Below, piece by piece: positions 12,815 through 50,564 of a DNA stretch of 64,000 nucleotides (within the stretch, counting starts at the first letter, position 1; each line of letters opens with the position of its first letter). Below the pieces are notes generated by a model. The model ran no database searches. It worked only from the letters and a program-made list of their open reading frames with translations, and was not told the DNA's origin. The stretch comes from Burkholderiaceae bacterium (GTDB lineage: Bacteria > Pseudomonadota > Gammaproteobacteria > Burkholderiales > Burkholderiaceae_E), in NCBI GenBank assembly GCA_021166725.1, contig JAJPES010000079.1:1-64000 (forward strand), given 5' to 3'. The position numbers and the translations under genes are program-made.

Positions 12815-12906
12815 ATTATTCGTCGCGGCTCTCGCGCGGATGAGGCGATAAGCACGGGCTTTGCCCCGTATCTCGCGCAACCGCCGTCGCAGGCCGGCAC
12901 TACGCT
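12815..12906. promoter_or_regulatory. Divergent flgB/flgA promoter with FlhDC-type box
   Basis: The half-sites GATAAGCA (12847-12854) and CGTATCTC (12867-12874) are separated by 12 bp and form an imperfect inverted repeat. Leftwards, 26 bp beyond the first half-site, AATAAT (minus strand, 12820-12815) is a good -10 for flgB. Rightwards, 26 bp beyond the second, TACGCT (12901-12906) is a -10 for flgA. No -35 consensus is visible, as expected for activator-dependent promoters. The same geometry recurs at 24738, 34079, 40850 and 50505. The assignment to FlhD4C2 is an inference from the known inverted-repeat consensus in enterobacteria and from the gene set. Confidence 0.75.
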
Positions 12907-12912
12907 GCGCGA

Positions 12913-13920
12913 ATGGGCTCGCCGACAGCGATTTCTCGAATCACGTTCGCGGATGCGGAGACAACATTCGCGCGGGCGACGACAACGCTTGCGCGGGCGA
13001 AGACGATGCTCGCGCAGGCGAGGACCACGCTCGCGCAAACGAGAACCACGCTCGCGCAAAAACGGACTACGCTCGCGCAAACGCTCGGCACCTTCGCCGC
13101 GCTCGGCTTCGCCGCCTCGACTGTTGCCGTCGCGGCACAACAGGCGCCGAACGCCGCACAGCACGCCGCGGCGATGGCAAACCCGCCCGCCGTGCAGCAC
13201 GCTCCTGCCCGACCCTCGTCGGACGACGCATCGCCGCTGGCCGAAATGGCACCCCAGCTGCAACGCTGGATCGAGGAGTCGGCCGCGTCTACGTGGATGA
13301 TTCGCCTGCCGGCCGGCGCCGATTCCGGAGCCACGGACGGTGCCGACGGCGACGTTGGTGCCGCCGGATTGCGCGTCGAGGTAAAGGTCGGCCGGCTGAA
13401 TCGCGGAATGCGGTTGGCGCCGTGCGCGCGCATCGAGCCGTTCCTGCCGCCCAACGCGCGCCTCTGGGGCCGCGGCTTCGTCGGCGTGCGCTGCACCGAG
13501 GGCGCGACGTGGTCGACGATGATTCCCGTCACGGTGTCGGTATTCGGTCCGGCGCTGGTCGCGAACCTCCCACTACCGGCCGGTTCGATGCCGAGCCCCG
13601 GAGACTTCCGGATCGACGAAGTCGACTGGACCCGTACCACCGGCGTGCCGGTCACCGATCCGGCGTGGCTTGCCGGCCGCTCGCTGGCCCGCCCGCTGTC
13701 GGCCGGGCAGGTACTGCGCGCCAACGACCTGCGCGTTCCGCAGACGATCGCCGCCGGCGATCCGGTGCGCATCCGCATGGTCGGCACCGGCTTCAGCGTC
13801 TCGGCCAGCGGCTTCGCGCTGGCCGGCGCCGGCGAAGGACAGTCGTTGCGCGTGCGTACCGAAAGCGGCAGGATGCTGGTCGGCACGGTCCGCGAACGCA
13901 CGGTCGAGATCCGACTTTGA
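12913..13920 (+). CDS. flgA: P-ring assembly chaperone FlgA with repeat-extended N-terminus
   Basis: FlgA is a periplasmic chaperone for P-ring (FlgI) assembly. The C-terminal 140 residues hold the SAF-like family core ([19 protein letters not shown], then [19 protein letters not shown]). The protein is 335 residues long, well over the usual 220-250. The excess is N-terminal: residues 10-58 are seven copies of a TTLAQxR-like heptad, followed by a hydrophobic stretch ([18 protein letters not shown]) that is probably the signal-peptide core. The ATG at 12913 has no Shine-Dalgarno and lies six bases after a predicted -10, so it would be leaderless; the alternative is the ATG at 13006, inside the repeat. 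Confidence 0.87.
12940..13086 (+). repeat. 21-bp tandem repeat (about 7 units) in flgA 5' end
   Basis: The seven units of 21 bp each encode a heptad of the form TTLAQTR (earlier units [21 protein letters not shown]). The best conserved are the units at 13024-13086, sharing ACGCTCGCGCAAACG-like DNA. Units at the 5' end are more diverged, as in an ageing minisatellite. Since 21 is a multiple of three, copy-number change would keep the flgA frame. The repeat supplies three to five basic residues before the hydrophobic segment of the signal peptide. Confidence 0.85.
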
Positions 13921-13964
13921 TGCAATCGCCGTCCATCGGACTCGAGCGTGCGGGGCCGCAAGCC

Positions 13965-13991
13965 TCAAGTTCGGCGCAAACCGGCCGAAAC
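13965..13991 (+). promoter_or_regulatory. Predicted sigma-28 promoter of flgM
   Basis: TCAAGTTC (13965-13972), an 11-bp spacer and GCCGAAAC (13984-13991) match the FliA consensus (TAAAGTTT-N11-GCCGATAA), with the TCAAG -35 variant that recurs elsewhere in this window. It lies 45 bp before the flgM ATG, allowing FliA to drive its own anti-sigma factor. Confidence 0.75.
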
Positions 13992-14035
13992 TCCCGGCAT
14001 CCGGGCGCGTACCCGGATTCGATAGGGGAATCGCC

Positions 14036-14356
14036 ATGAAGATCGGCAAACCCGAAGCACAGCAACCGGACGCACTGTCGCGTGCAGGCCACGGTACGCC
14101 TGTCGCCGGCGCCGTCGGCGGCGCCCGCCCGGATGCGGTCGAGAAGACGCCGCCGGCCGACGCCGTGCATCTTTCGCAAACCTCCCGGAGCCTGGCCGCC
14201 GAAGGCGCCGACGACGAGCAGCAGCGCCTGCGCAAGGTCGAGGAAGTCAAGGCAGCGATCCGCGAGGGCCGTTTCCAGGTGAGCGCCCACGCCGTGGCCG
14301 ACAAGATGATCTCGCAGGCGGCCGAACTGCTCGAGACGCTCTCGCGTCCCAAATGA
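14036..14356 (+). CDS. flgM: Anti-sigma-28 factor FlgM
   Basis: FlgM holds FliA inactive until the hook is complete, when it is exported. The 106-residue protein has an unstructured, charged N-terminus (MKIGKPEAQQPDALSRAG) and the FliA-binding C-terminus (VEEVKAAIREGRFQVSAHAVADKMI, split here as VEEVKAAIREGRFQ followed by a VSAHAVADKMI helix). The start was set at the ATG at 14036, after GAUAGGGGAA-like sequence. Its stop overlaps the flgN start as ATGA. FliA itself is encoded at 18483-19193. Confidence 0.92.
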   Translation: MKIGKPEAQQPDALSRAGHGTPVAGAVGGARPDAVEKTPPADAVHLSQTSRSLAAEGADDEQQRLRKVEEVKAAIREGRFQVSAHAVADKMISQAAELLETLSRPK

Positions 14357-14700
14357 CCGAGCAATCGCGCGCGAAAGAGGCGCCGCTCGACGAAGGGCTT
14401 GCCCTGCTCGAGGAGCAGCGACTGGCGATGCTCGCGCGCGACGCAGAACGGCTCGACGAGGTGAATGCTCGCCTGTCGGCGTGGATCGCCGCCTGCCGCC
14501 ACGTCGCGCGCAATGTCGATCCGACGGCCCGTCTTCTCCCGCTGCGCGTCGCGCTCGACGCGAACGCAGCGCTTGCACGCCGCTCGGCGCTGCAGGCTTC
14601 GCGCGCCCTCGGCGCGCTGCTCGGGCCCGACGCCCGCCTGTACACCGAAGAAGGGCTGACCCCGGCTCCCGCGCCTCGCCGCGAAGCCCGTTCGGCCTGA
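14353..14700 (+). CDS. flgN: FlgK/FlgL export chaperone FlgN
   Basis: This 115-residue protein is mostly helical and rich in Leu, Ala and Arg (LALLEEQRLAMLARDAERLD), with the size and position of FlgN. FlgN binds the hook-junction proteins FlgK and FlgL and delivers them to the export gate. Sequence conservation is weak in this family, so the call rests largely on context: it follows flgM with an ATGA overlap, as in most flgAMN clusters. Start and stop are unambiguous. Confidence 0.82.
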   Translation: MTEQSRAKEAPLDEGLALLEEQRLAMLARDAERLDEVNARLSAWIAACRHVARNVDPTARLLPLRVALDANAALARRSALQASRALGALLGPDARLYTEEGLTPAPAPRREARSA

Positions 14701-14788
14701 CGCATCCCCGGCACGAATCTCTCGATGCCCGCTCGGGGCCTTCAGGCCTGGCGGATGTCGTTGAGCCGAGCAGCCCGCCCGACATGAA

Positions 14789-14826
14789 AACCGCGCGCGT
14801 CCGCACTGCGGCGGATGCGCGCGGTT
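14789..14826. terminator. Bidirectional terminator between flgN and MCP
   Basis: A 16-bp stem (15 of 16 paired; AACCGCGCGCGTCCGC against its complement) closes a 6-base loop. Read on the minus strand it is followed by a run of four T, so it best serves the chemoreceptor gene ending at 14831. It lies between two convergent genes and can stop both. Confidence 0.75.
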
Positions 14827-14830
14827 GTCC

Positions 14831-16753
14831 TCAGAACGTTTCCCAGCCGTCGTCGGCAGCAACGGCCTTCGCCGGTTGAGCGGCCCCGTCGCGCGCGGTC
14901 GCTGCGGGAATGGCTCCGCCCGCTTGCGCGCGGACGACGGCAGCGGTCGGCACGGCCAGCGCAGGAAGCTTCGCGCCGGCGCCGCCGGTTTGTGAAGGCT
15001 TCGGCGTCGGCACGCCGCGGCGCGTGCCCGCTTCGCTGCGAGCCGACGTACCGGAGTCGCGCTGGCTCGCGACGCCACCGGCCCTCGCCACGCGCGCGGG
15101 CGATGCGGATTCCCTGCCCGCCGCGCTCGGCAGACCCTGCCGCGCAGACTCGCGTGCCCGCGCGATCGCCGCTTCGGCCTCGCCCGACTCGCCCACCTGG
15201 AACACACCGACCACTTCTGCCAGGTTGACCGCCTGGTGCTTCAGGCTCTCGGCCGCCGCCGCCGACTCCTCGACCAGCGCGGCGTTCTGCTGCGTCATCT
15301 GGTCGAGTTGCGTGACCGCGACATTGATCTGGTCTATACCGCTGCTCTGTTCGTTGGCCGCCGCGGTGATCTCGCCGATGATGTCGGTGACGCGCTGCAC
15401 CGACACGACGATTTCGCGCATCGACGCACCGGCATCCTGCACCAGCCGCGAGCCCGCCTCGACGCGCTCCACGCTGGTACCGATCAGCGCCTTGATCTCC
15501 TTGGCAGCATCGGCACTGCGCTGCGCGAGGCTACGCACCTCGCTGGCCACCACCGCGAAGCCGCGACCCTGCTCGCCGGCGCGCGCCGCCTCGACAGCCG
15601 CGTTCAGCGCGAGGATGTTCGTCTGGAACGCGATGCCGTCGATCGTGCCGATGATGTCGGCGATGCGCCGGCTCGAATCGTCGATCTCGCCCATTGTCGC
15701 GACGACCTGATCGACGACCCCACCGCCGCGTGCCGCGACGTCCGAGGCCGTGGTCGCGAGCTGGTTCGCCGTGCGCGCCGAGTCGGCGGTCTGGCGTACG
15801 GTGCCGGTGATCTGCTCAAGCGAGGCGGCGGTTTCCTGCAGGTTCGACGCCGTCTCCTCGGTGCGCTGGCTCAGGTCCAGGTTGCCGACCGCGATCTCGT
15901 CGGCCGCGGTGCGAATGCTCTCGGTGGAAACGTGCACCTGCTCGATCATCCGCCGCAACGACGCGATCATCGTCTGCAGGCCGTCGAGCAGGCTGCCGTG
16001 CGCCGCACGATCGAGCCGCGCAGCGAGGTTCCCGCGCGCCACCTCGTCCATCACGCGCATCGCCTCGGCGGGGTCGCCGCCGATCTGGCGCAGCACGCTG
16101 CGCGCAACCAGCCAGCCGACGCCCGCGACCACCGCGAGCAGCGCGAGCGCGGTCGCGACCTCGCGCATGCGCTGACCCTGGACGAGCGCATCGAGGTCAT
16201 CCATGTACACGCCGGAGCCGACGACCCAGTTCCAGCCGTCGATGCGCGTGCCGTACTGCAGCTTCGGCAACGCCTTCGTCTGCCCTGGCCGCGGGAAATA
16301 GGCCTGCGCGAACGCGCGCCCGTCCGCGCTCGCCGCCACCGCATCGAGCAGGCTCTTCAACGAGTCGCCTCCTGCGGCGTCGAGCAGCTTGCCGATCATC
16401 GACTGGCCGGTCCACTCGGGATGCGTCGGGTGCATGACCGTCGAGCCGTCGACGGTCCAGATGTAGAAGTACTCGGTCTTGCCGTCCGCGCCACCGTAGC
16501 GCGCCATGCGGATCGCCTCCACCGCGGCTTTCTTCGCGTCGTCGACCGGCATCTCGCCGGCGGCCGCGCGCGCACGGTAGGCGGAGGCGATGTTCGCCGC
16601 GGACTGCACCGCGGCGACGAGTTCGCCGCGGCGCCCGTCGACCGTCAGGCGTTCGTTGCGCAGCGAGGAAATGACCGAAAGCACGACGAAACCGAGCACT
16701 GCGGTCGCGACGAGCAGGAGAATCTTGTGCTTGAAACCGAAACGGCGAAACAT
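14831..16753 (-). CDS. Membrane chemoreceptor (MCP) with single Cache domain and GWETF tail
   Basis: The 640-residue receptor has an N-terminal membrane segment ([20 protein letters not shown], residues about 11-30), a periplasmic single-Cache domain ([20 protein letters not shown], near 112), a second membrane segment ([16 protein letters not shown]), then HAMP and the MCP signalling hairpin ([20 protein letters not shown] near 415). The last five residues, GWETF, match the CheR/CheB-docking pentapeptide (NWETF in enterics), so this is a high-abundance-type receptor that can recruit the adaptation enzymes. The start was set at the ATG at 16753, giving the usual basic N-terminus. The ligand is unknown; small organic acids are common for this Cache class. 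Confidence 0.92.
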
Positions 16754-16833
16754 CTTGGCACTTCTCTGTAGTGGTTGCAGGGAGGGAAGGCAGCGTCCGG
16801 CCTGGCATGCGAAGCGCCAGACGCCATATATCT

Positions 16834-16860
16834 TCTTCGGCAGCAAAAAGCCGGACCTGA
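16834..16860 (-). promoter_or_regulatory. Possible weak sigma-28 promoter of the MCP gene
   Basis: On the minus strand TCAGGTCC, an 11-bp spacer and GCCGAAGA resemble the sigma-28 pattern. The -35 is poor and overlaps the terminator hairpin of the upstream gene. A FliA promoter is expected for a receptor, but this site is only a candidate. Confidence 0.3.
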
Positions 16861-16868
16861 AGTCCGGC
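16845..16868 (-). terminator. Rho-independent terminator after the soluble MCP gene
   Basis: On the minus strand an AGCCGGAC stem, four-base loop, perfect GTCCGGCT return and five T form a textbook intrinsic terminator. It begins six bases after the stop codon of the soluble receptor gene (stop at 16874) and separates it from the membrane receptor. Confidence 0.88.
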
Positions 16869-16873
16869 TGCGT

Positions 16874-18283
16874 TCAGAACTGGTACGCGAGGCGCAATCC
16901 GCCCCAGTGGCGTCCCCGGACGACGATCGGCGCCGACAGGTCCTTCATGTAGACGAACTGCCCGCCGCCCATGTCGCGCCGGTAGGTCTGCAGCAGGAAG
17001 CGGCGCTTGTTGCGTCCTGCGCCGAGCCCGGTACGGTCGTTGAACAGGCGCCGGTTGCGGCAGTGCGCCGCGTTCCATACCGGGTCGGGCCCCTGCGGGC
17101 GCGAGTAGCGCGCGTTGTGCGTGGGCAGGTAGCCGTTGCGGTCCACCGCCGCACAAAGGGACGCCTTCGGCGAGCACTGCAGCATCGGCTCCTGGACCTG
17201 CGGCAGCAGCCGGTCGGTGAGCGCGACGAAGCGTGTCGTGTACTGCTGCGGATTGGTTCCGGGCACCGGCACGTAGTTCTCGTCGAAGAGCTCGGCCATC
17301 GTGATCGCGCCGCTGTCGAGCGCGTCCTCGAACAGGCGCGAGACCTGCGCCGCCGCGCCGATCACTTTCTCGATGAGCGGCGTGTCCTCGGTGTGGATGC
17401 CCGACTCCACGGTGAGCTCGATCAGCGACTCCGACAGCCCGAGGAACTTCTCGGCCTTGCGCCGCGTCCCCGCGATCACGTCGGCGCTGGCGTGCGAGTC
17501 GCTCGCGAGCTGGCGCACCGACTCGAGCACCTCCTCGCAGCACTGGACGTTGCGCACCGCCGCCTGCACGACCTCGCTGGCCTGCGCCTCCGAGCGCGCG
17601 AGTGCCGCCCGAAAGGTGCCTTCGCGCTTCGCGTCGTCGTCGATCTCGCTCGATAGGCCGGCAAGCCGCGCCTCGAGCCTCGACACCGTCTGCATGATCT
17701 GGCGCGAGGCTTCCTCGACGCGTGCGGCGAGGTCCTTGACTGCCTCGGCCACCACCGAAAAGCCGCGCCCCGCCTCTCCGGCGCGCTTGGCTTCCACCGA
17801 GGCATTGAAGGCGACCAGACGCGTCTGCAAGGCGATCTGCGTGATCTCGCGCGCCGACGAGGTGACGTGCGAAAGCGATTCCGTCGTCTCGCCGAAGCCG
17901 GAGACGACCTTGGCGACCGCCGCGCGCGCCTCGACCAGGCACTGCTGCCCGGCGCGCGAAGCGTCGCCGATGCGCCGGTTCGAATCGACCATGGTCGTGA
18001 TCGTCTGCATCGCACCGTCGAGCGTCTGCGCCTGCGCGACGGCAGCTGCGGCAACCTCCTCGAGCACGCCGTTCACCTCGGCCGCCTCGCGCCCGAGGCC
18101 CGCCGCCTGCCGCGCGATTCCCTCGAGCACGGCACCGGCCTGCGCGCCGTCAGCAACGGCGCGACCGCCGTCCGCGTCGACGCCCGCGCCGTTCGCCGGA
18201 TGCACGCCGGAGCCTGTCTTGCGCGCGGCGAGCGCCTCGCTCTTCGGCGTTTGCGCCCGCCGGCGCGTCGTGAACATCAGCAT
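16874..18283 (-). CDS. Soluble methyl-accepting chemotaxis protein with C-terminal sensor-like domain
   Basis: The 469-residue protein has no membrane segment. The MCP signalling hairpin lies in the first two thirds (VEAKRAGEAGRGFSVVAEAV near residue 175). The last ~130 residues form a separate Cys/Trp-containing domain (DRNGYLPTHNARYSRPQGPD, then RRDMGGGQFVYMKDLSAPI) of Cache-like character, as seen in other cytoplasmic receptors. The order is the reverse of ordinary receptors. There is no CheR pentapeptide. The ATG at 18283 was chosen because GGGAGACAAGTC precedes it; the next ATG is two codons in. The signal sensed is unknown and presumably cytoplasmic. Confidence 0.85.
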   Translation of the reverse strand: MLMFTTRRRAQTPKSEALAARKTGSGVHPANGAGVDADGGRAVADGAQAGAVLEGIARQAAGLGREAAEVNGVLEEVAAAAVAQAQTLDGAMQTITTMVDSNRRIGDASRAGQQCLVEARAAVAKVVSGFGETTESLSHVTSSAREITQIALQTRLVAFNASVEAKRAGEAGRGFSVVAEAVKDLAARVEEASRQIMQTVSRLEARLAGLSSEIDDDAKREGTFRAALARSEAQASEVVQAAVRNVQCCEEVLESVRQLASDSHASADVIAGTRRKAEKFLGLSESLIELTVESGIHTEDTPLIEKVIGAAAQVSRLFEDALDSGAITMAELFDENYVPVPGTNPQQYTTRFVALTDRLLPQVQEPMLQCSPKASLCAAVDRNGYLPTHNARYSRPQGPDPVWNAAHCRNRRLFNDRTGLGAGRNKRRFLLQTYRRDMGGGQFVYMKDLSAPIVVRGRHWGGLRLAYQF

Positions 18284-18318
18284 GACTTGTCTCCCGTAGC
18301 GGTGGCCCGGTACCGCAG

Positions 18319-18487
18319 CCTCAGAAGCTGTGAATGAATCCGGCGTGCCCGAGCGGGCCGCCGAGGCACGCCCAATCAAGGCGCAAAGCGCAGCCGTAGC
18401 TCGGGCTACGGCGAGCATTTGCAACGCAGAGTGGGCGCGCCTGGGCGGAACGAGCGGGCATGACGGATTCGTTCACAGCTTCTCAGG
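18319..18487. repeat. Foldback (MITE-like) element between fliA and the soluble MCP gene
   Basis: Arms 18319-18349 and 18456-18487 are inverted copies with about three mismatches (outer core AGAAGCTGTGAA against TTCACAGCTTCT). Inside them a second pair (GGCGCGCCCA / TGGGCGTGCC) and a central perfect hairpin (CCGTAGCTCGGGCTACGG) let nearly the whole ~170 bp fold on itself. The right end coincides with the fliA stop codon (TGA at 18485-18483). It encodes nothing. The form suggests a multi-copy palindromic element. Confidence 0.8.
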
Positions 18488-19193
18488 TCCATTGCTTCAT
18501 CTGCGTGCGCAACCGGGCGACCGCCTGGCTGTGCAATTGCGAGATGCGCGACTCGGTCACGCCGAGCACCGCGCCGATCTCCTTCAGGTTCATCTCCTGC
18601 TCGTAGTACATGCCCATCACCATCCGTTCGCGCTCGGGCAGCTTCTCGATCGCCTCGACGAGCGCGTGACGGAAGCGCAGGTCGCCGAGAATCTCCTGCG
18701 GATCGACATCGGCCGAAGCGGCATGCCTGTCCAGGAACGATTCGTCTTCGTCGTCGTAGTCGTCCAGATGCAGGAGCTGCGCGCCGCGCGCGCCGTCGAG
18801 CAGGCGCTGGTACTCGCCCAGCGGCAGCCCGAGTTCCTCGGCGATGTCGGCCTCGCCGGGCGCGCGCCCGAGGCGCTGCTCGGCGCGATGGATCGCCGAC
18901 TCGATGGTGCGCTGGCTGCGCCGCACCGAGCGCGGCAACCAGTCGCTGCCGCGCAACTCGTCGAGCATCGCGCCCCGCACGCGCTGCGTGGCGAAGGTCT
19001 CGAACTGCGCACCCCGGTCGCTCTCGTAGCGCGTCATGGCGTCGAACAGCCCGATCATCCCGGCCTGCACGAGGTCGTCGAGTTCCACGTTGGCCGGCAG
19101 CCGGCCGATCAGCTGGTTCGCCATGCGGCGAACCATGGGCCCGTAGCGCTCGATGGCGCTCTTTCGATCGAGGGTTCCTTGCGCTGTGTACAT
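18483..19193 (-). CDS. fliA: Flagellar sigma factor sigma-28 FliA
   Basis: FliA directs RNA polymerase to late flagellar promoters. The 236-residue protein has region 2 (LDDLVQAGMIGLFDAMTRYE near 38), region 3 (WLPRSVRRSQRTIE) and region 4 with its helix-turn-helix (MNLKEIGAVLGVTESRISQL near 203). The start was set at the ATG at 19193 (YTAQGTLDRKSAIERYGPMV). It lies 29 bp after flhG. Its stop codon falls within the foldback element. FlgM (14036) is its inhibitor, and candidate target promoters occur at 13965, 26824, 28047, 29284 and 31915. Confidence 0.96.
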   Translation of the reverse strand: MYTAQGTLDRKSAIERYGPMVRRMANQLIGRLPANVELDDLVQAGMIGLFDAMTRYESDRGAQFETFATQRVRGAMLDELRGSDWLPRSVRRSQRTIESAIHRAEQRLGRAPGEADIAEELGLPLGEYQRLLDGARGAQLLHLDDYDDEDESFLDRHAASADVDPQEILGDLRFRHALVEAIEKLPERERMVMGMYYEQEMNLKEIGAVLGVTESRISQLHSQAVARLRTQMKQWT

Positions 19194-19222
19194 GGCGTGG
19201 GCGGATCCGATGGCGACCGGTT

Positions 19223-19903
19223 TCAGTGCGTCGCCGCACGCGGACGCGCGACGATCGGTTGCGACCAGCGCAGCGCCTCGTCGGCGAAGCGTTCGGCGTC
19301 GATCGCTTCTCGCGTGCCGCCGAACTCGATCGCCGCCCCCAGAAAGCGCGCCGCAGTGTCGGCGAGCCGGCGATGCGACGCGAGCGCCGCTGCGCGCGAG
19401 CCAGCATCGAAGAACAGCGCGCAGTAGGCGCGAAAGCCGTGCGCCAGGTGCATCGCCTTGATCTGCGAGTACGTACGCGCGAGCCCATCGCCGCGTGTGC
19501 GCGCGACCAGCACGATCCGCTCGGCCACGCCCGCCGTGAGATCGGCCAGGCGCAGCGGATCGGCGGCAACCAGCGCCACGTCGAAAGCGCCGCGGCCATC
19601 GTCGCCGGGTTGGGTAAGCGAGGCGACGAAGCGCGCGAGCTCGCGCACCCCGGCGCCCTCGGGCAACAGCGCGCCGGCATCGATGTGAGCGAACGACGTG
19701 TCGTCGTCGCGCCGCGCAGCGCCGCCGAGCAGGTCGACGAGCAGCGGTCGGCGCCCGGCGCGCGCGAGCGCGCGCGCCATCGCCTCGACGCCCGCCCGAT
19801 CGGCCGCGTCGCCCGTCGTGCAACCGAGCGGCAGCAGCCGTGGCTGCTGCGGCCGAAACAGGCGCCTCAATCCGGCGGCCTGATCGCGCGCGACCTCAAA
19901 CAC
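19223..19903 (-). CDS. flhG: FlhG-like (FleN/YlxH) protein without P-loop
   Basis: FlhG is normally a MinD-type ATPase that sets flagellar number by stimulating the FlhF GTPase. This 226-residue product keeps the N-terminal DQAAGLRRLF, matching the DQAxxLR helix that activates FlhF. Where the KGGVGKT P-loop should be, it has LGCTTGDAADRAG, and the second motif is reduced to LLVDLLGG. Membrane-targeting and ATP hydrolysis are therefore unlikely. The start is the GTG at 19903, which overlaps the flhF stop by eight bases and puts the DQA motif at residue 6. An ATG at 19951 would add 16 unrelated residues. Confidence 0.82.
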   Translation of the reverse strand: MFEVARDQAAGLRRLFRPQQPRLLPLGCTTGDAADRAGVEAMARALARAGRRPLLVDLLGGAARRDDDTSFAHIDAGALLPEGAGVRELARFVASLTQPGDDGRGAFDVALVAADPLRLADLTAGVAERIVLVARTRGDGLARTYSQIKAMHLAHGFRAYCALFFDAGSRAAALASHRRLADTAARFLGAAIEFGGTREAIDAERFADEALRWSQPIVARPRAATH

Positions 19904-24696: not shown

Positions 24697-24737
24697 TGCG
24701 CCCGGAAATCGATACCCGAAATTCTTTCTCGGGGCCG

Positions 24738-24797
24738 ATTATTCGCGCGAGGCGTCGAACGCGTTCCGGGATAAGCGGCACTCCGGCCGCGCTGTTC
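24738..24797 (-). promoter_or_regulatory. FlhDC-type box and -10 for flhB operon
   Basis: GATAAGCG (24770-24777), a 12-bp spacer and CGCTGTTC (24790-24797) form the inverted repeat. On the minus strand AATAAT (24743-24738) follows exactly 26 bp beyond the first half-site, as at flgB, fliE, fliF, fliL and cheW. The second half-site overlaps the motB stop codon, so the export operon is predicted to be transcribed independently of motAB. Confidence 0.72.
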
Positions 24798-27064: not shown

Positions 27065-27637
27065 TCAGTGGATAGTTCCGCTGCGCCGCCCCTTCCCCGC
27101 GCGCGCCGGCGGCGCGCACAGCCCGCAGACGTAGTTGCGCTCGATCTCGTGCGGGTGCGTGACGAACTGCCCGCCGCAACGGCTGCATTTCGTCGTGCCG
27201 AGCAGGCCCGCGTCAACGAAGCGCACGAGGCGCCAGGCGCGCGTGACCGACAGCAGCGGCTCGACGCCGAGCGATTCGATCTCCGCCGCGTAGAGCCGGT
27301 ACGCCTTGACGATCGCCTCGACGTCGTCGAGCGGGCTCGTCTTCAGCAGGTAGCCGTACAGGTTGTAGAACAGCGACGCGTGGATGTTCGGCTGCCACGC
27401 GACGAACCAGTCGGTGGAGAACGGCAGCTGGCCTTTCGACGGCGAGCGACCCGCGACTTCCTTGTACAGGCGCAGCAGCCGTTCGTAGGGCAGCTCGGTC
27501 TCGGCCTGCAGCATCTGCAGCCGCGCGCCCAGTTCGATCATCTCGATCGCGCGCGCGACCTGGCGGTTGTCCTCGAGAAGGCTGCGGCGCGCAGCACCCG
27601 TCGCCTCTCGTGTAGCCACGCCCGCCGGCGCGCTCAC
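27065..27637 (-). CDS. flhC: Flagellar master regulator subunit FlhC
   Basis: FlhC with FlhD forms the FlhD4C2 activator of class II flagellar genes. The 190-residue protein has the family core (ARAIEMIELGARLQMLQAET, then ETELPYERLLRLYKEVAG) and the zinc-binding cysteines Cys151, Cys154, Cys171 and Cys174 (KCSRCGGQF and YVCGLC). The start is GTG at 27637, overlapping the flhD stop (GTGA). Candidate FlhDC boxes in this window are at 12847, 24770, 34112, 40850 and 50537. Confidence 0.96.
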   Translation of the reverse strand: MSAPAGVATREATGAARRSLLEDNRQVARAIEMIELGARLQMLQAETELPYERLLRLYKEVAGRSPSKGQLPFSTDWFVAWQPNIHASLFYNLYGYLLKTSPLDDVEAIVKAYRLYAAEIESLGVEPLLSVTRAWRLVRFVDAGLLGTTKCSRCGGQFVTHPHEIERNYVCGLCAPPARAGKGRRSGTIH

Positions 27638-27969
27638 GGTTGTGCCTCGGCGTAGTTGCCCGCCATCAGGATCGACGCGTGCAGGCGACGCGCGCTGCCC
27701 TCGTCGCGCTCGGTGGCGCGGCCGTGGTCGGCGAGCAGCGACCAGACGAGTTCGTCGTCGAAGCGCATCCGGCACATCAGCTGGTTGCCCGAGGCGATGC
27801 GCAGCAGCTGGCTCGGCGTGAGCGCATCGAGCAGGTCGGCCACTTCCTCGGACACGCCGAGGCGGTAGAGCGCCTGTGCACGGTCCTCCCGGATCAGACG
27901 CTGCGCGAGGATCAGGTACGAGAGATTCGTTTCGCGAATCTCCGACATCCAGCGTTGTTCGTTGTTCAT
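27634..27969 (-). CDS. flhD: Flagellar master regulator subunit FlhD
   Basis: The 111-residue product has the FlhD core (IRETNLSYLILAQRLIREDR and ALYRLGVSEEVADLL) and the usual length. It dimerises and binds FlhC to form the master activator. The ATG at 27969 is preceded by a purine-rich GGGGTTGCGGA. A sigma-28-like element lies about 78 bp upstream, suggesting feedback from FliA onto the master operon. Confidence 0.95.
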   Translation of the reverse strand: MNNEQRWMSEIRETNLSYLILAQRLIREDRAQALYRLGVSEEVADLLDALTPSQLLRIASGNQLMCRMRFDDELVWSLLADHGRATERDEGSARRLHASILMAGNYAEAQP

Positions 27970-28046: not shown

Positions 28047-28073
28047 GTGTCGGCTGCGGGCGGGGGTTCTTGA
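28047..28073 (-). promoter_or_regulatory. Sigma-28-like promoter upstream of flhDC
   Basis: On the minus strand TCAAGAAC (28073-28066), 11 bp, GCCGACAC (28054-28047). The -35 half is identical in eight bases to that of motA, and the -10 keeps GCCGA with a substituted end. FlhDC is usually transcribed by sigma-70, so this would be an autoregulatory input. No other promoter was recognised in the 720-bp upstream region. Confidence 0.5.
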
Positions 28074-29283: not shown

Positions 29284-29310
29284 TAAAGCGGAAGGGGGCT
29301 TCGCCGATAA
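29284..29310 (+). promoter_or_regulatory. Sigma-28 promoter of fliC
   Basis: TAAAGCGG (29284-29291), an 11-bp spacer and a perfect GCCGATAA (29303-29310) give the best FliA promoter in the window. It lies 90 bp before the fliC ATG. The rest of 29107-29400 contains the end of the transposon remnant and the leader only. Confidence 0.9.
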
Positions 29311-30318: not shown

Positions 30319-30349
30319 ACGGCCGGCGCCGAAAAGCGCCGGCCGTTTT
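30319..30349 (+). terminator. Rho-independent terminator after fliC
   Basis: An 11-bp perfect GC stem (ACGGCCGGCGC and its complement) with a short loop is followed by TTTT. It lies 66 bp after the fliC stop and isolates this highly expressed gene from fliD. Confidence 0.9.
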
Positions 30350-30455
30350 CCGTTGATCGGCCCTTCGCCGCCGCTCGCCGCCGGTACAGTCGCCTGACCA
30401 AACGGGCACTCGCCCCTTCACAACCGCCCGCCTCGCCTTACGCCCGGAGTTACTC

Positions 30456-34078: not shown

Positions 34079-34172
34079 CATCTTGACCCCGGTCCGGCAC
34101 GCGCGGGACGCGAAATAGCGGCATCCCCACCCGCTTATTCGGCCTCGAGTTTCGGCGCGCTCGCCCGATACT
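34079..34172. promoter_or_regulatory. Divergent fliE/fliF promoter with FlhDC-type box
   Basis: GAAATAGCG (34112-34120) and CGCTTATTC (34132-34140) form a near-perfect inverted repeat with an 11-bp spacer. Exactly 26 bp leftwards, CAAGAT (minus strand, 34085-34080) serves fliE; 26 bp rightwards, GATACT (34167-34172) serves fliF. The fliF -10 lies only seven bases before the annotated ATG. A sigma-28-like TCAAGATG...GCCGAGGG overlaps the fliE -10 but has a poor -10. Confidence 0.78.
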
Positions 34173-40849: not shown

Positions 40850-40909
40850 AAATAGCGCCGCGCCACCCGCGCTTATCGCGCTTTGGAAAGCCGCTCCGCG
40901 GCCGAGAAT
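40850..40909 (+). promoter_or_regulatory. FlhDC-type box and -10 for the fliL operon
   Basis: AAATAGCG (40850-40857), 12 bp, CGCTTATC (40870-40877) form the inverted repeat. GAGAAT (40904-40909) lies exactly 26 bp beyond, 65 bp before the fliL ATG. The minus direction has no -10 and no gene, consistent with a one-way site. Confidence 0.78.
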
Positions 40910-41460: not shown

Positions 41461-41491
41461 ACGAGACCCCGCGCGCCGGAGAGCACGAACG

Positions 41492-42938: not shown

Positions 42939-42943
42939 TTCCG

Positions 42944-43282
42944 ATGACGTCCACCTGGCCGTCGCTGCTGGCGCTGGCGCTGATCCTGGGCGCACTGCCG
43001 CTGGCGGCGTGGCTCGTGCGCCGCGGGCCCGCGTCGATCGGCACGCGCGGCACCGCGCTGGGAGTCGTCGCGGCCGTGCCGGTGGGCGCGCGCGAACGCA
43101 TCGCGCTCGTGCGTGCCGATCGAAAGTGGCTCGTCGTCGGCATCACCACGCAGGCGATCACCACCCTCGCCGAGCTCGACGAGGCGCCGGCCGGCATCGA
43201 TCCCGATGCCACGGCGATCGCCGCGAACAGCTTCGGCGATGTACTCCGGGCGATCTCGAATCGTGCGACGCGCAATCGCTGA
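42944..43282 (+). CDS. fliO: Flagellar export gate assembly protein FliO
   Basis: FliO helps assemble the FliP ring. The 112-residue protein has a single N-terminal membrane segment (LLALALILGALPLAAWLV) and a short cytosolic part ending in a cluster of basic residues. The ATG at 42944 is five bases after fliN. FliO is poorly conserved; context fixes the call. Confidence 0.88.
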   Translation: MTSTWPSLLALALILGALPLAAWLVRRGPASIGTRGTALGVVAAVPVGARERIALVRADRKWLVVGITTQAITTLAELDEAPAGIDPDATAIAANSFGDVLRAISNRATRNR

Positions 43283-44090: not shown

Positions 44091-44097
44091 AGCCGCG

Positions 44098-44382
44098 GTG
44101 ACGCCCGAATCGGTGCTCGGCTTCGGCCGCCAGGGGCTCGAGATCCTGCTGGCGGCGGCCGCGCCGGTGCTGCTGGCCGCGCTCGCGGTCGGCCTCGTCG
44201 TCAGCATCCTGCAGGCGCTCACGCAGATCAACGAAGCGACGCTCTCCTTCCTGCCCAAGCTCGTCGCGATCGCCGTCACGTTGATGCTCGCCGGTCCCTG
44301 GATGCTCGCACTGCTGGTCGACTACCTGCAGCGTGTACTGACCGGAATCCCGTCGGCAATCCTCGGCTCGCCGGTACCGTGA
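44098..44382 (+). CDS. fliQ: Flagellar export protein FliQ
   Basis: The 94-residue protein has two membrane segments and the family motif (QALTQINEATLSFLPKLVAI). The start is a GTG at 44098, seven bases after fliP; it gives the normal length. It overlaps fliR by GTGA. Confidence 0.94.
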   Translation: MTPESVLGFGRQGLEILLAAAAPVLLAALAVGLVVSILQALTQINEATLSFLPKLVAIAVTLMLAGPWMLALLVDYLQRVLTGIPSAILGSPVP

Positions 44383-45140
44383 TCGCGGTCGGCGAGACGC
44401 AGCTTCTCGCCTGGCTGGGCGCGCTGCTGCTGCCTTTCTTCCGCGTGCTCGGACTCTTCACCAGCGCGCCGATCCTTTCGCAGCGTTCGGTGCCCGTTCG
44501 CCTGCGCGTCGCGGTGTCGCTCGCAGTCGCAGCGCTCGTCGCGCCGCTCGTTCCGCCGGCGGCGGCGCTGGACATCGCGTCGCCCATCGGCTGGCTCGCG
44601 GTGGCGAGCGAGGCACTGATCGGCTTTGCCATCGGCTTCGTCGCGCGCGTCGTGCTTGCGGCGGTCGAAGTGGCGGGCGAGACGATCGGCCTGCAGATGG
44701 GGCTGTCCTTCGCCGGCTTCTTCGACCCCGACAGCGGACAGTCCAACGGCGTCAGCCGCCTGCTCAACACCTTGTCGCTGTGGGCCTTCGTCGCGATCAA
44801 CGGTCCGCTGCTGCTGGTGGCGGCCGTCGTGCGCAGCTTCGACGTGATCCCTCCGGCCGCGGTGCTCGCGGAGTGGATCGGCCGGATGCAGCCGGCGTCG
44901 CTCGGCGCCGGCGTCTTCGAACTGGGCGTGATGATCGCGCTGCCTTTCATGGCGCTGCTGCTGTTCGTCAACCTCGGCTTGGGCATCGTCTCGCGGATCG
45001 CCCCACAGCTGAATATCTTCGCGATCGGCTTTCCGGTGACGATCGGTGCCGGACTCCTGCTGCTCGCGCTGGCGATGCCGCTGATGCAGCAGCCGTTCGC
45101 GCTGCTGATCGAGCGGGTGCTGGGGGCCTGGGGCGGCTGA
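44379..45140 (+). CDS. fliR: Flagellar export protein FliR
   Basis: FliR is the last export-gate component. The 253-residue protein has about six membrane segments and the conserved VAGETIGLQMGLSFAGFFDP near 97. GTG start at 44379, overlapping the fliQ stop. It ends the fliLMNOPQR operon; a hairpin at 45180-45212 follows. Confidence 0.95.
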   Translation: MIAVGETQLLAWLGALLLPFFRVLGLFTSAPILSQRSVPVRLRVAVSLAVAALVAPLVPPAAALDIASPIGWLAVASEALIGFAIGFVARVVLAAVEVAGETIGLQMGLSFAGFFDPDSGQSNGVSRLLNTLSLWAFVAINGPLLLVAAVVRSFDVIPPAAVLAEWIGRMQPASLGAGVFELGVMIALPFMALLLFVNLGLGIVSRIAPQLNIFAIGFPVTIGAGLLLLALAMPLMQQPFALLIERVLGAWGG

Positions 45141-45179
45141 GGAGCGGTTGCCGCAGCGTGGGCAGGCGCAACGATCCAC

Positions 45180-45212
45180 GAGCCGGCGCGCGAGAAGCGC
45201 GCATTTCGGCTC
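45180..45212. terminator. Probable bidirectional terminator between fliR and the HD-GYP gene
   Basis: GAGCCG and CGGCTC close an inner perfect stem of GCGCGC with a five-base loop, followed by an ATTT bulge. It lies between convergent genes. No long T run follows on either strand, so the assignment is tentative. Confidence 0.5.
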
Positions 45213-45262
45213 GCGTCGACCCTCCGCCGCGGCGGTCGCCCCGTGCGAAGCCCCCGTCCCGA

Positions 45263-46606
45263 TTACGCCATCACGCCGCCAGCGAGCTGCCGATGGATCT
45301 CCTCGCCCATCAGCAGCTCCGGCAGGTGCTTGAACCCCCATTGCGCATTCGACTCGCGCGCCACGATCCGATCGCCGACGCCGGCGTCCGCGAGATCGAC
45401 GCGTTCGACACGCACCGGCAGCGACTTGCGCGTCGACCAGAAGATCTTCACACACGGCTGCGCCGGCAACTGCGGGTTCTGGTCGATCACGATACCCAGC
45501 CGCTCCGACTTCATGCGCACCAGCGAACCGACCGGATAGATGCCCACCGTATTCGCGAAAGCGCGGAACAATGCGGGATCGAACTGTCCGGCCTTGGTCC
45601 ACGCGGCCATCTTCGCGATGGATTCGGCGGGGTCCCACGGCTCCTTGTAGGCGCGCAGCGAAGTGATCGCGTCGTAGACGTCGCACAGCGCGTTCATCCG
45701 TGCAGCGTAGGGAATCGCCTCGCCGGCGAGCCGCGCCGGATAGCCGTCGCCGTCGTAGCGCTCGTGGTGATGCAGGCATGCAAGCAACACGACCTCGTTC
45801 ACCGCGTGCTTCTCGCTCAGCATCCGGTGACCGATCCGGGGATGCTGCTGCATCGCGACGAACTCCTCGTCGCTCAGCCGTCCGGGCTTGTCGAGAAGCT
45901 CGCGCCCGACGCCCGTCTTGCCGATGTCGTGCAGCAGTCCCGCCAGCGCGGCGTCGCGCGTGGCCGCCTCGTCGAAGCCGAGTTGGCGCGCGAGCGCGGT
46001 CATCAGCGCGCAGACGGCTATCGAATGCATGAAGGTATAGCTGTGATGCGTGCGCACGCGCGCCAGCGAGACGAGCGCCGACGGATTGCGCGTCGCCGAC
46101 GCGGCGATCTGCCGAGCGACTTCCGCGCAGCGCTCGAGCTCGATTGCGCGACCGAGCCGCGCTTCGCGGAACAGCGATTGCGTGGCGCGCGCCGCCTGGG
46201 CGCAGACTACCGCCGCACGCTCCACTTCGTCCTCGTAGCGCAGGCCCGGGGCCGACGCCTGGGCCGATCCGTCGCGAAGTGCCGGGTCGTCACCCCTTTC
46301 TCGAAGCGCGGGTTCCCCCCGCCCCGCTGCGCCCGACGCCAGCGGCTGCGCATCCGCGTCCGCCGGCTCTGCAGCCATCGGCGGTACGCGGTCGTGCGCA
46401 GGCACACCCGACGCATCGGCGCGCTCCACGCCCTTCGAGCGGTCGATCCAGCACTCGGCTACGCCGCTGGCACGCAACGCCGCGAGCTCGCGCTCGTTGC
46501 GCACGAGAAACCGCGTGCGCCAGAACGGATGGTCGATCCATTTCCCGCACAGCGACTCGACGTGCATGCCGATCTCGAGTCGGTCGACGCGGATCTTTTC
46601 GCGCAC
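45263..46606 (-). CDS. HD-GYP domain c-di-GMP phosphodiesterase
   Basis: The 447-residue protein carries an intact HD-GYP domain: THHSYTFMHS near residue 205, HDIGK near 250, and HHERYDGDGYP near 312, which are the metal and substrate motifs of c-di-GMP phosphodiesterases. The N-terminus has a DUF3391-type domain (RLEIGMHVESLCGKWIDHPF). The start is GTG at 46606, 19 bases after the cheZ stop, with GGAGCGG upstream. As the last gene of the cheW operon it probably lowers c-di-GMP, which would relieve YcgR braking. Confidence 0.92.
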   Translation of the reverse strand: MREKIRVDRLEIGMHVESLCGKWIDHPFWRTRFLVRNERELAALRASGVAECWIDRSKGVERADASGVPAHDRVPPMAAEPADADAQPLASGAAGRGEPALRERGDDPALRDGSAQASAPGLRYEDEVERAAVVCAQAARATQSLFREARLGRAIELERCAEVARQIAASATRNPSALVSLARVRTHHSYTFMHSIAVCALMTALARQLGFDEAATRDAALAGLLHDIGKTGVGRELLDKPGRLSDEEFVAMQQHPRIGHRMLSEKHAVNEVVLLACLHHHERYDGDGYPARLAGEAIPYAARMNALCDVYDAITSLRAYKEPWDPAESIAKMAAWTKAGQFDPALFRAFANTVGIYPVGSLVRMKSERLGIVIDQNPQLPAQPCVKIFWSTRKSLPVRVERVDLADAGVGDRIVARESNAQWGFKHLPELLMGEEIHRQLAGGVMA

Positions 46607-46624
46607 CGCCCGCTCCGACGCCGA

Positions 46625-47263
46625 TCAGAACCCGAAACTGGCGAGCAGCTCGTCGACCTCGCCCTGGCTGGAGACGACATCCGCCGCGCGCGCATCGACG
46701 ACGGGACCGGCGAGCATTTCTTCGCCCGCCGCACCGGAGGCCGTCGCCGGTGCCGCCTGCACCAGCAGCCGCACGAGATTGGCCTCGAGATCGCCGGCCA
46801 ACGCAACGACTTTCGCCACCACCTGGCCGGTCAGGTCATGGAAGTCCTGCGCCACGATGATGTCTGTCAGGTGCCGGTCGACGCGCTCCATCGCTTCGTC
46901 GACCTCCTGGACGAATCCGATAAGTGCCCCGCTTGCCACCGCGCGCACAGGATCGGCCTGGATCGACGCCGCGATCCGGTGCGTGGCTTCGCCCACGCGC
47001 GAGCGCTCGAGCTTGGCCTGGTCGACCGAGTTGAGCACCTTGTCGGCGGCCTCGCCGGTCTTGCGCGCGATGTAGTCGAGACGGCTGCGTGCGTCGGGCA
47101 GCCCGTTGGCCGCGCTCTGCAGGCGCGACATCAGGCTCAGTTCCTGCAGCGAATCGTGCAGCTCGCGGGTGAGATGGCCGAGCTGCTGGAATACCTGTGA
47201 GGCGATCTCGGCGACGACTTCCGGCTCCACGGCCGGCCGGTTCGCGGTGGACGCTTGAATCAT
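46625..47263 (-). CDS. cheZ: CheY-P phosphatase CheZ
   Basis: The 212-residue protein contains the catalytic DxxxQ in VAQDFHDLTGQVV, with Asp143 and Gln147 at the same numbers as in E. coli. The C-terminus EVDELLASFGF is the CheY-binding peptide. The ATG at 47263 was chosen over an upstream frame extension because it starts the family N-terminus. It follows cheY after 50 bp in the same operon. Confidence 0.95.
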   Translation of the reverse strand: MIQASTANRPAVEPEVVAEIASQVFQQLGHLTRELHDSLQELSLMSRLQSAANGLPDARSRLDYIARKTGEAADKVLNSVDQAKLERSRVGEATHRIAASIQADPVRAVASGALIGFVQEVDEAMERVDRHLTDIIVAQDFHDLTGQVVAKVVALAGDLEANLVRLLVQAAPATASGAAGEEMLAGPVVDARAADVVSSQGEVDELLASFGF

Positions 47264-47313
47264 GAAGGGGTACCTGCTCCGGTTCTTCCTGCTCGTTGTC
47301 GGTTCCGGCCGCT

Positions 47314-47706
47314 TCACGCCGTGGCACGTCGCTGCATGATCTTGCCGACCTTCTCCTCCAGCGTCGCCTTCGTGAAGGGCTTGACGATGTAGCCCGCGGC
47401 GCCACCCTGCGCGGCCTGCACGATGTCTTCCTTGCGCGCCTCGGCGGTCACCATCAGCACCGGAAGGTGCTTGAGCTCGTCGTCCGCCTTGATCGCCTGC
47501 AGCAACTCGAAGCCGTTCATGTTCGGCATGTTGATGTCGGAGACGACGAAATCGAAGGACTGCGAGCGCAGCTTCGCCATCGCGGCGGCGCCGTCCTCGG
47601 CCTCGTCCGCATTGTGGTAGCCCATCTCCTTGAGCAGGCTGCGCACGATGCGGCGCATCGTGGAGAAATCGTCGACGATCAGGAATCGCAGGTCGGGTCT
47701 GGACAT
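47314..47706 (-). CDS. cheY: Chemotaxis response regulator CheY (motor-type)
   Basis: CheY-P binds FliM and switches rotation. The 130-residue receiver has Asp12, Asp13, phospho-acceptor Asp57 ([12 protein letters not shown]), Thr87 and Lys109, and tyrosine at 106 (GYIVKP), all matching E. coli CheY numbering. It lies between the MCP gene and cheZ. A second CheY-like gene at 52761-53147 has Trp at the equivalent of 106. Confidence 0.95.
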
Positions 47707-47718
47707 CGGTTTCCTCGG

Positions 47719-49875
47719 TCAGGCACTCATCTCGCGTCGGGCTTCGCCCACCGCGTCATCGTCGTCGTTCATTTCAGGAACCACGCCGCCGTGCGCCGCG
47801 GGCGCCGGAAGACGCGAGACATTGGTCGCCCGGTTCGGCCCGCGGCGCTCGACGCCGATCGAGGCCGGGTCCGCATGCGCGCGGAAGTCGTCTACATCCA
47901 GGCGCGCTGCATCTCCCGCCAGGCGGAATGCGGCCACCGCGCGCAGCAGCTCCTGCGCCTGCGTCTCGAGGCTGGCCGCGGCCGCGGCGCTCTCCTCGAC
48001 CAGCGCCGCGTTGTGCTGCGTCGCCTGGTCCATCTGGTTCACCGCTTCACCGACCTGCGCGACGCCGGCGCTCTGCTCGGTGCTGGCGCTGCTGATCTCG
48101 CTCATCAGGTCGGTGACGCGACGGATCGAGGCGACCACGTCCTGCATCGTGGCGCCGGCGCGGTCGACGAGCTTCGTTCCGCGCTCGACCCGCTCCACGC
48201 TCGCGCCGATCAGCACCTTGATCTCGCGCGCCGCGTCGGCCGAGCGCTGCGCGAGGTTGCGCACCTCGCCGGCGACCACGGCAAAGCCCCGGCCCTGCTC
48301 CCCGGCTCGCGCGGCCTCGACGGCCGCATTGAGTGCCAGGATGTTGGTCTGGAAGGCTATGCCGTCGATCACGTTGATGATGTCGGCGATACGACGCGAG
48401 CTGTCGTTGATCTCCCTCATCGTGCTGACGACCTCGCCGACCACCTGTCCGCCCGAGACCGCGACCTCGCTCGCTCCGCGCGCAAGCTCGTCGGCGCGCT
48501 GTGCGTGATCGGCGTTCTGCTGTACGGTGGCACTGAGCTCCTCCATCGAGGCGGCCGTCTGCTCGAGCGTGCTCGCCTGCTCCTCGGTGCGCGAAGAGAG
48601 ATCCGAGTTGCCCTGCGCGATCTGCGCGCTGGCGGCAGCCACGCTCTCGGCACGACGACGCACCTCCGCGACGACCTCGGCGATGTGGTCCTTCATCGCG
48701 ACGAGCGCATGGGCCAGCTGTCCGATCTCGTTGTCGCCGCGGGGTTGCAGCGTGACGTCGAGATCGCCTTCCGCGACCGAACGGGCCATCGACACCGCTT
48801 CGGCCACCGGAACGGTGAGGCTGCGAACGAATACCACCATCAATGCCAGCGACGCGACCAGGATCGCGGCCAGCGCGCCGACGACCGCGAACGCCGTGCG
48901 GCGCAGCTCGGCCACGCGCGATTCGAACAGCGAAGACAGCACCGCCATCGTCGCTTCGTCGAAGGCATAAAGGCTGTCGATGGTTGCGCTGATCCCGTCG
49001 TAGTACTCGTTGCTCGCGAGGTCCAGTTGCTGCGCAGTGATCAGCCGCTGGTCGACGACGGCCAGCGAGGCGGCAATCTTCGCCTTCGTCTCCGCGACCC
49101 TGGCCTCGAGGCGTTGCTTCAGCGCCGGATCGGCCGCGTAGGCGAGCGACAGGCTGTGGTCGACCTCCGCGAGTCGCTCGTTCATCCGCTCCTTCATCGC
49201 GCTGAGCGAGGCGCGGCCACCGTACGAAAGGTTCTTGTCGACCAGCGCCGTGGTGCCGAAGGCGCGCATGCGGCCGAGCATCTCGGCGGCCCGCGGCATG
49301 TGCAGGAGCGACGCGTCGACCAGCGCGTTGCTGTCGCGTTCCGGCGCCAGCGTCAGGCCGAACTCTTCGGTCAGCCGTTCGGAGAGCACGAGCAGCGAGG
49401 CGATCCACTCGGTGTGAAGATCGGTGCTGCGCTCGGCAGATTTCAACTCGCCCGAGGCGAGCGCCTTGTCGAGTGCGCTCCAGCGTTGCATCGCTTCGTT
49501 CCACCCGCTGATGAAAGCCGCCGACAGCGCGACCTCCTTCATGCGAGCCTCGAAGCCGGCGATGGCCTGCACGAGCGAAGCACGCGCCGCCGGTCGCTTC
49601 GACTTCAGCGCCTCGTTGTCGTCCTGCCACAGGGCGGACAGCGAGGCTTCCGAGCCGAGCGACGCGGCCACGACGTCGCGGTGGTTCTGCGCGTGCTGGA
49701 TCGCCTTCTGCAGGGCGATCACCGAAGCCGCGCCGTCGACCCGGCGCTCGGCGGTGCTCACCTCGTCGGTGACGCGCAGCAGGTACAGCGTGGTAGGCAG
49801 CGCCATCATCGCTATCGCGAGCACGCCGAGGACCAGAAACTTCTGCGAAAGGCGGATTCGGTGCAACCAGGACAT
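47719..49875 (-). CDS. Membrane chemoreceptor with nitrate/nitrite-sensor-type four-helix domain
   Basis: The 718-residue receptor has an N-terminal membrane segment ([20 protein letters not shown]), a ~300-residue helical periplasmic domain ([19 protein letters not shown]), a second membrane segment ([20 protein letters not shown]), HAMP, and the MCP hairpin ([20 protein letters not shown] near 525). The C-terminus has no WxxF-type pentapeptide. The ATG at 49875 follows AGGGGAAGCC; a GTG at 49911 overlapping the cheW stop is possible. The large helical sensor differs from the Cache receptor at 14831. Ligand unknown. Confidence 0.92.
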
Positions 49876-49907
49876 GGCTTCCCCTATCCAGGAGGGCAAT
49901 CGGGCAC

Positions 49908-50444
49908 TCACTGCACGGCGGGTTCGACGAGACCCATGTCGGCGCTCGTCATCAGCTTCTCGATATCGACGAGGATCAGCATCCGGTCGTCGATCGCTCC
50001 GATCGCGAGCAGGTGATCGGCCTCGATGCTGGCGGCGAACTCGGGCACCGGACGCAACTGCTCGGGCGCCAGCGTGATCACGTCGGACACCGAATCGACG
50101 ACCATGCCGACCACGCGCGAGCCGATGTTCAGCACGATGACGACGGTGAAGTGGTCGTATTTCGCCTCGTCGAGACGGAACTTCAGCCGCATGTCGACGA
50201 TCGGCACGATCACGCCACGCAGGTTGACCACGCCCCGGATGAATTCGGGAACGTTGGCCAGCCGCGTCGGCTCCTCGTACGAACGGATCTCCTGCACGCG
50301 CAGGATGTCGATGCCGTATTCCTCGTTGCCGAGCTTGAACGCGAGGAACTCGCGCGCGCGGGTCGCGGCTTCACCCTGCCCCGCCGTGACCTTCGCGGCA
50401 TTCGCGGCCGCGGTGGTGGTCGGGATCGCGGTAGTGGCGCTCAT
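49908..50444 (-). CDS. cheW: Chemotaxis coupling protein CheW
   Basis: CheW links receptors to CheA. The 178-residue protein has the SH3-like CheW fold ([20 protein letters not shown] near 32 and [16 protein letters not shown] near 73). AAGGAAGACATCCG precedes the ATG. It starts the second che operon and lies below a predicted FlhDC-activated promoter. An Ala/Thr-rich N-terminal extension of about 30 residues precedes the domain. Confidence 0.95.
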
Positions 50445-50504
50445 CGGATGTCTTCCTTTGCTTCAATGGAACGGGCAGACCACGCATTGGCGGTCGATGA
50501 ATCG

Positions 50505-50564
50505 ATCTTCGGCGCAAGTGCGCGCCGCTCGCGCCCGAAAAGCGCAACGCGAAGGTCGCTTATC
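50505..50564 (-). promoter_or_regulatory. FlhDC-type box and -10 for the cheW operon
   Basis: GAAAAGCG (50537-50544), 12 bp, CGCTTATC (50557-50564) form the inverted repeat. On the minus strand GAAGAT (50510-50505) lies 26 bp beyond, 60 bp before the cheW ATG. It sits in the 157-bp gap after cheA, so the cheW-MCP-cheY-cheZ-HD-GYP group is predicted to have its own class II promoter. Confidence 0.72.

Follow-up and report, generated by a model that had tools for sequence, protein, structure and literature searches.

Six predicted FlhD4C2 operator-promoters with a shared operator to −10 spacing in the flagellar cluster of a Burkholderiales bacterium

The stretch of DNA analysed here (the window, bases 1–64000 of contig 26 of a 3.57 Mb draft genome) carries a flagellar–chemotaxis cluster that includes flhD, flhC and fliA. 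Its host is assigned to the Burkholderiales because the nearest relatives of its FliF, 82% and 78% identical, belong to metagenome-assembled genomes labelled Burkholderiaceae and Burkholderiales. The subject of this work is a set of six inverted repeats in the cluster that resemble the operator of the flagellar regulator FlhD4C2 (hereafter FlhDC boxes). Both regulator genes are encoded on the minus strand of the window, as the original prediction held: flhD at 27634–27969 (39% identity to E. coli FlhD over 97 residues) and flhC at 27065–27631 (start codon approximate; PF05280 at 6.5e-79; 50% identity to E. coli FlhC over 170 residues). Family models identified flgB, flgA, flhB, fliE, fliF, fliL and fliD; FliL and FliD scored below the curated cut-off, FliD being nevertheless the best model for its gene.

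Five of the repeats had already been recognised and are all present. The first occupies the divergent region between flgB (minus strand) and flgA (plus strand) at 12847–12874, with an N12 spacer and the most degenerate arms of the six. The box before flhB (24770–24797, minus strand) lies at the 3′ end of motB and has a −10 hexamer on a single side, and the one between fliE (minus) and fliF (plus) at 34112–34140 has an N11 spacer, 9-base arms and orthologous boxes in kin. Two others precede fliL, after fliK (40850–40877, plus strand), and separate cheA from cheW (50537–50564, minus strand), the latter an inverted repeat also recovered in the genome scan. The sixth box, before fliD (30331–30358, plus strand), had been missed, so that the proposed five-site regulon stands in its members and not in its count. 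The single form given for the repeats, GATAAGCG-N-CGCTATTTC, is a composite: the repeats are inverted, as stated, and their arms differ from box to box (GATAAGCG, AAATAGCG, AATAAGCG, GAACAGCG, GAAAAGCG, GAGATACG). On a 16-point scale in which RAWWARCG is counted twice, the arms score 16/16 at fliE/fliF, fliL and cheW, 15 at flhB and 13 at flgB/flgA; five boxes, that of fliD included, score 15–16.

A −10-like hexamer lies 26 bp from the near arm in every direction that serves a gene, the distance being counted from 8-base arms (28-bp sites) or 9-base arms (29-bp site). The hexamers are AATAAT for flgB (12815–12820, −), TACGCT for flgA (12901–12906, +), AATAAT for flhB (24738–24743, −), CAAGAT for fliE (34080–34085, −), GATACT for fliF (34167–34172, +), GAGAAT for fliL (40904–40909, +), GAAGAT for cheW (50505–50510, −) and TACAGT for fliD (30385–30390, +). 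The seven originally listed, fliD excluded, all conform to NANNNT, with A as the second base and T as the sixth. Counted from the outer edge of the near arm, this pattern starts at exactly 26 bp in 7/7 directions; every other offset between 0 and 59 accounts for fewer than 2/7. Measured from the box centre, the −10 lies at 40–40.5 bp. NANNNT has a background rate of 0.023 in the window (2.3% of positions), and when the seven downstream stretches were shuffled 200,000 times the best of 60 offsets reached at most 5/7, once. The pattern was found at 26 bp in 0/3 gene-less directions, which bears out the predicted absence and raises their number from the two named to three, the addition being the direction right of 24797, facing the 3′ end of motB. 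In a leave-one-out position weight matrix (PWM), each promoter was outscored by 0–2 of 127,870 positions (known-site positions not counted), the partner direction remaining in the training set at flgB/flgA and fliE/fliF. The flgB and flhB promoters also have in common an extended −10, GAATAATCGGC (12811–12821 and 24734–24744).

A sequence-only profile built from the seven promoters was scanned against the draft genome. The seven took ranks 1–7 (29.7–34.9 bits), as expected by construction. Rank 8 was the site upstream of fliD, which is absent from the model (20.2 bits, E 0.002), followed by rank 9 at 17.4 bits. The fliD box was found too by a box-only pattern that contains no −10, and its −10 at +26 is therefore an independent check on the spacing. 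In E. coli, too, FlhDC has a weak site at fliD (fliDST), according to the portion of PMC4183435 covered. Further class II promoters were sought among the 38 profile matches below fliD (E≤10); all seven inspected lie inside predicted open reading frames (ORFs), the best of them (17.4 bits, arms 12/16) also adjoining a divergent ORF start. At two mismatches the box pattern is unspecific: it gives 15 (N11) and 12 (N12) matches per strand, and its reversed form still gives 4 and 8; of three matches inspected, two are inside an ORF and one between ORFs. Five of the six boxes fall within two mismatches of the pattern, and the flgB/flgA box is not among its genome matches. The profile scan found no separate box for fliA.

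The arms were compared with two published E. coli consensuses, AAYGSSNNAAATAGCG-N10-12-CGCTATTTNNSSCRTT (PMC9962212, in the part covered) and the base-specific ANNAN18TNWTN6WT, as quoted in the covered part of PMC12888815. They appear to fit both, the flgB/flgA box only loosely. Matches to the base-specific form are 7/7 for fliL and fliD, 6 for flgB and flhB, 5 for fliE, fliF and cheW and 4 for flgA; only four of 127,934 window positions match at 7/7, and the fliL and fliD boxes are two of them. The W-T pair of the outer part (SSCRTT, or W33 T34) is present at flgB, fliL and fliD and absent at flgA, flhB, fliE, fliF and cheW. The FlhDC target list in the same part of PMC12888815 includes flgA, flgB, flhB, fliE, fliF and fliL.

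Boxes before class II genes of E. coli K-12, located with the published half-site, have NANNNT 39.5–41 bp from the box centre in 8/8 directions (flgB, flgA, fliF, fliE, fliL, flhB, fliA and fliD); single matches weigh less there because that genome is richer in A+T. The two systems are alike in the inverted repeat, AAATA(A/G)CG with N10–12 in E. coli, in most target genes, in the distance from box centre to −10 and, by the covered part of PMC4183435, in a weak fliD site. They differ in the arms, which in the window are often GATAAGCG or GAAAAGCG, in the outer W-T pair, in fliA, which in the window lies 3′ of flhB-flhA, and in cheW, which in the window has a box. An FlhDC box has also been published for Acidovorax delafieldii LR140, another member of the Burkholderiales (PMC12888815); the parts of that article covered, which exclude its supplements, mention neither the spacing from box to −10 nor a cheW site. 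No statement of a fixed distance was found in the FlhDC literature searched, which omitted most subscription papers, so its absence there does not show the distance to be new.

Regions upstream of flgB, flhB, fliE, fliF, fliL, cheW and fliD were then compared in relatives, with a hand-picked near-kin set of 27 loci and a box threshold of at least 14 of 16, which was reached in 1% of 1115 shuffled regions. Duplicates and regions shorter than 200 bases were dropped, two odd-length rows (L020 and L023) were also omitted from the final count of boxes and −10 hexamers, and flgA regions, having no usable start, were left out. Near kin have a box in 43/49 regions, with a −10 at 39–41 bp in 43/43; other Burkholderiales have one in 46/141, with the −10 in 41/46. 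The latter are uneven by gene: 8/9 for flgB, 0/17 for fliD and 1/15 for cheW, that one without a −10. Control regions upstream of fliM have a box in 0/31. At control distances the −10 count averaged 1.8/43 and 3.8/47, in a run that still included an artefact row. AATAAT is the commonest −10 hexamer in near kin (15/43).

These data speak to two further claims. The agreement with the known FlhD4C2 layout is upheld, most boxes fitting the published consensus and the spacing being that of E. coli. A consensus specific to this lineage is doubtful: 5/9 fliE/fliF boxes in near kin read AAATAGCG-N11-CGCTATTT without deviation, with plain E. coli arms, in a comparison that took in 46/48 fliF loci (L015 and L020 left out). 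By eye, the arm variants look tied to individual promoters, kin having the far arm GAGATGCG at flgB, GAACAGCG or GAATAGCC at flhB and GAATAGCG at fliL. A lineage-specific geometry was rejected, the same spacing being found in E. coli, near kin and other Burkholderiales (8/8, 43/43 and 41/46). As a yardstick, the E. coli half-site AAATARCG alone detected boxes in 11 kin regions for fliE, in 11 for fliF and in few others, and was replaced by RAWWARCG. A CTTAAGTTTTCC-like stretch stands just 3′ of the near arm, where a −35 element would be expected, in flgB or flhB upstream regions of other Burkholderiales and of some kin (L058, L060, L061, L064, L067, L138, L140, L143 and L152); by eye it is missing from the promoters of the window.

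When the profile was scanned against 40 relatives, 20 had a match at E≤0.05. Of the 56 matches outside the source genome, the 33 at E≤0.01 were judged, and 27 of these lie in intergenic regions of flagellar class II genes, the clustering that had been anticipated; 23 were assigned by script, one of them (G035, L206) 511 bp from the fliD match, and four were added by eye, each lying on the opposite side of a flagellar box (L157, L176, L202 and L217). The six elsewhere comprise three in genomes without detected FlhD (G023 twice and G029; arms 9, 11 and 13) and three in FlhD-positive genomes (arms 15, 15 and 14). Arm scores and spacing of these six are not independent evidence, because the model contains both; a recurring gene family is. 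In two genera, FlhDC-type matches stand directly before DUF3391/HD genes (L203, G032:C25:195373-195437; L167, G041:C14:3889-3956), whose combination of PF11871 with PF13487 we take to be of the HD-GYP type. This suggests that FlhDC controls cyclic di-GMP (c-di-GMP) breakdown in the G032 and G041 genera. Another such match (L208, G035:C29:50831-50886) precedes a TPR/GT41 glycosyltransferase gene, whose product is possibly a flagellin glycosylation enzyme.

Taken together, these results make it very probable that the six boxes are FlhD4C2 operator-promoters serving eight directions of transcription, of the class II kind already known. That FlhD4C2 binds and activates them, where transcription starts and how far the operons reach are predictions drawn from the DNA. 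FlhD4C2, made from flhDC of the same cluster, would bind an inverted repeat of two 8–9-base arms set 11–12 bp apart. The near arm would end ~38 bp upstream of the start and would therefore stand in for a −35 element, and the regulator would recruit sigma-70 RNA polymerase to a weak −10 at a fixed ~40 bp from the box centre. For E. coli, recruitment is reported to proceed through the carboxy-terminal domain of the polymerase alpha subunit. In the divergent regions (flgB/flgA and fliE/fliF) one box would serve both sides, and elsewhere only the side bearing a −10 would be used. Transcription of fliA (sigma-28; 18495–19154, minus strand), which shares its strand with flhB and flhA and lies 3′ of them, is probably driven by the flhB box, and FliA would then drive class III genes such as fliC. 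A class II architecture with a near-invariant distance from operator to −10 is thus common to E. coli and to Burkholderiales of 69% G+C, and class II promoters could therefore be callable from DNA alone in uncultured genomes when box and spacing are combined.

Several observations weigh against this assignment, and our confidence is slightly lowered because the flgB/flgA box is degenerate (13/16) and because some FlhD-positive relatives lack matches. At flgA the base-specific consensus is matched at 4/7 only. The hexamers are weak, with 3 to 5 of 6 positions in common with TATAAT, and NANNNT is a loose criterion. Boxes of E. coli score only 11–14 of 16, and for its fliA the second-ranked box was used, because the first, which has no NANNNT at the distance, overlaps the fliA start. 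At the threshold, 95/141 regions of other Burkholderiales have no box, and 20/40 relatives have no profile match at E≤0.05, including 10 of the 21 that are FlhD-positive; matches to the profile, moreover, have the spacing built in by construction. Within the genus, FlhD and flagellar box matches agree only in part (6/8 FlhD-positive versus 2/9 FlhD-negative genomes), so FlhD presence is only suggestive as a predictor of boxes, and genomes without it may lack flagella altogether. One genome estimated 99% complete has a clean fliE box with arms AAATAGCG and CGCTATTT (G039:C98:24037-24093, L164) and no FlhD found by PF05247.

The unusual element is the cheW box; the remainder is known in kind. 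Genes for CheW, a methyl-accepting chemotaxis protein (MCP), CheY, CheZ and a DUF3391/HD protein of HD-GYP type follow it on the same strand (45263–50444, minus) and form a presumed operon, which in this species would be added to class II. The 16/16 arms of the cheW box have a score reached by fewer than 1 in 1000 of the 1115 shuffled regions, its −10 is exactly at +26, and when it was held out of the PWM it was outscored by 1 of 127,870 positions. Its third rank in the genome is not independent, since the site belongs to the model. A box with a −10 before cheW was found in none of 15 kin regions (13 genomes, some paralogues), a point that the original prediction overlooked. The order cheR-cheB-cheA-cheW-MCP-cheY-cheZ is kept in the two nearest relatives, G032 and G022 (CheW 80% identical), and the HD-GYP gene ends the operon in the window and G032 and not in G022. 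The gap between cheA and cheW is ~35 bp in G032. G022 has upstream of cheW a sigma-28-like sequence with three mismatches, containing GCCGAAGA, to the sigma-28 promoter consensus, which we take to be TAAAG-N14-GCCGATAA; it may use this promoter at cheW. The region has GCCGAAGATCGA in common with the −10 region of cheW in the window.

One alternative is that only the flagellar sites are real; the cheW site would then resemble them by chance or without function, and transcription of cheW would come from cheA or depend on sigma-28, as may happen in relatives. The overlap of GCCGAAGATCGA with the G022 sigma-28-like site and the lack of a box with a −10 in all 15 regions, the two nearest with the same gene order included, favour it; the arm score, the position of the −10 and the held-out PWM tell against it, as does the closest match to the sigma-28 consensus upstream of cheW in the window, with five mismatches (three in kin L114). 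We consider this explanation unlikely. A functional box, on the other hand, is likely to have been gained over an older −10 region, placing cheW-MCP-cheY-cheZ-HD-GYP under early control, as judged from one genome; since it was not found in the 15 kin regions, a recent capture of this operon into class II is suggested. Class III promoters of sigma-28 (FliA), which have no FlhDC box, serve flagellar and chemotaxis genes expressed later in this cluster: a perfect sigma-28 site precedes fliC (29284–29310, plus) and a one-mismatch site precedes cheR (56362–56388, minus), for which reason cheR-cheB-cheA look class III and cheW class II.

A wider reading can be put forward tentatively, and we regard it as a reasonable conjecture that may well fail. 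The chemotaxis/c-di-GMP module (cheW-MCP-cheY-cheZ-DUF3391/HD-GYP) would recently have shifted from late expression, sigma-28-dependent or linked to cheA, to the early FlhDC class by gain of a box 26 bp upstream of an existing −10. Stand-alone DUF3391/HD-GYP genes elsewhere in the family would have gained boxes independently, so that FlhDC would repeatedly capture this presumed c-di-GMP-degrading family. If real, the cheW case is a readable example of a gene set changing its place in the flagellar timetable.

It is very unlikely that the repeats are instead bound by another regulator with shared flagellar targets, a sigma-54 activator of the FleQ/FlrA type being one example. Boxes do occur in three genomes for which the FlhD search was negative (G024, G030 and G039), but two of these are only 83% complete, the arms agree with the published consensus for FlhDC, the hexamers are of the sigma-70 type and the E. 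coli layout is the same. A fixed spacing that arose by coincidence among few promoters, or from shared ancestry, is extremely improbable: one box is common to both divergent promoters, orthologous promoters are non-independent and the 89 boxed directions represent 67 different box sequences, but none of the 200,000 shuffles exceeded 5/7, distances in kin peak at 39–41 bp with a total count of 1 at 32–38, and E. coli shows the same distance.

Elsewhere in the window, Rfam models at gathering scores and tRNA scans detected nothing. A weak sigma-28-like site with three mismatches lies before flhDC (28047–28073, minus strand). Through it FliA could possibly feed back on the flhDC master operon; at such stringency it may well be a chance match.

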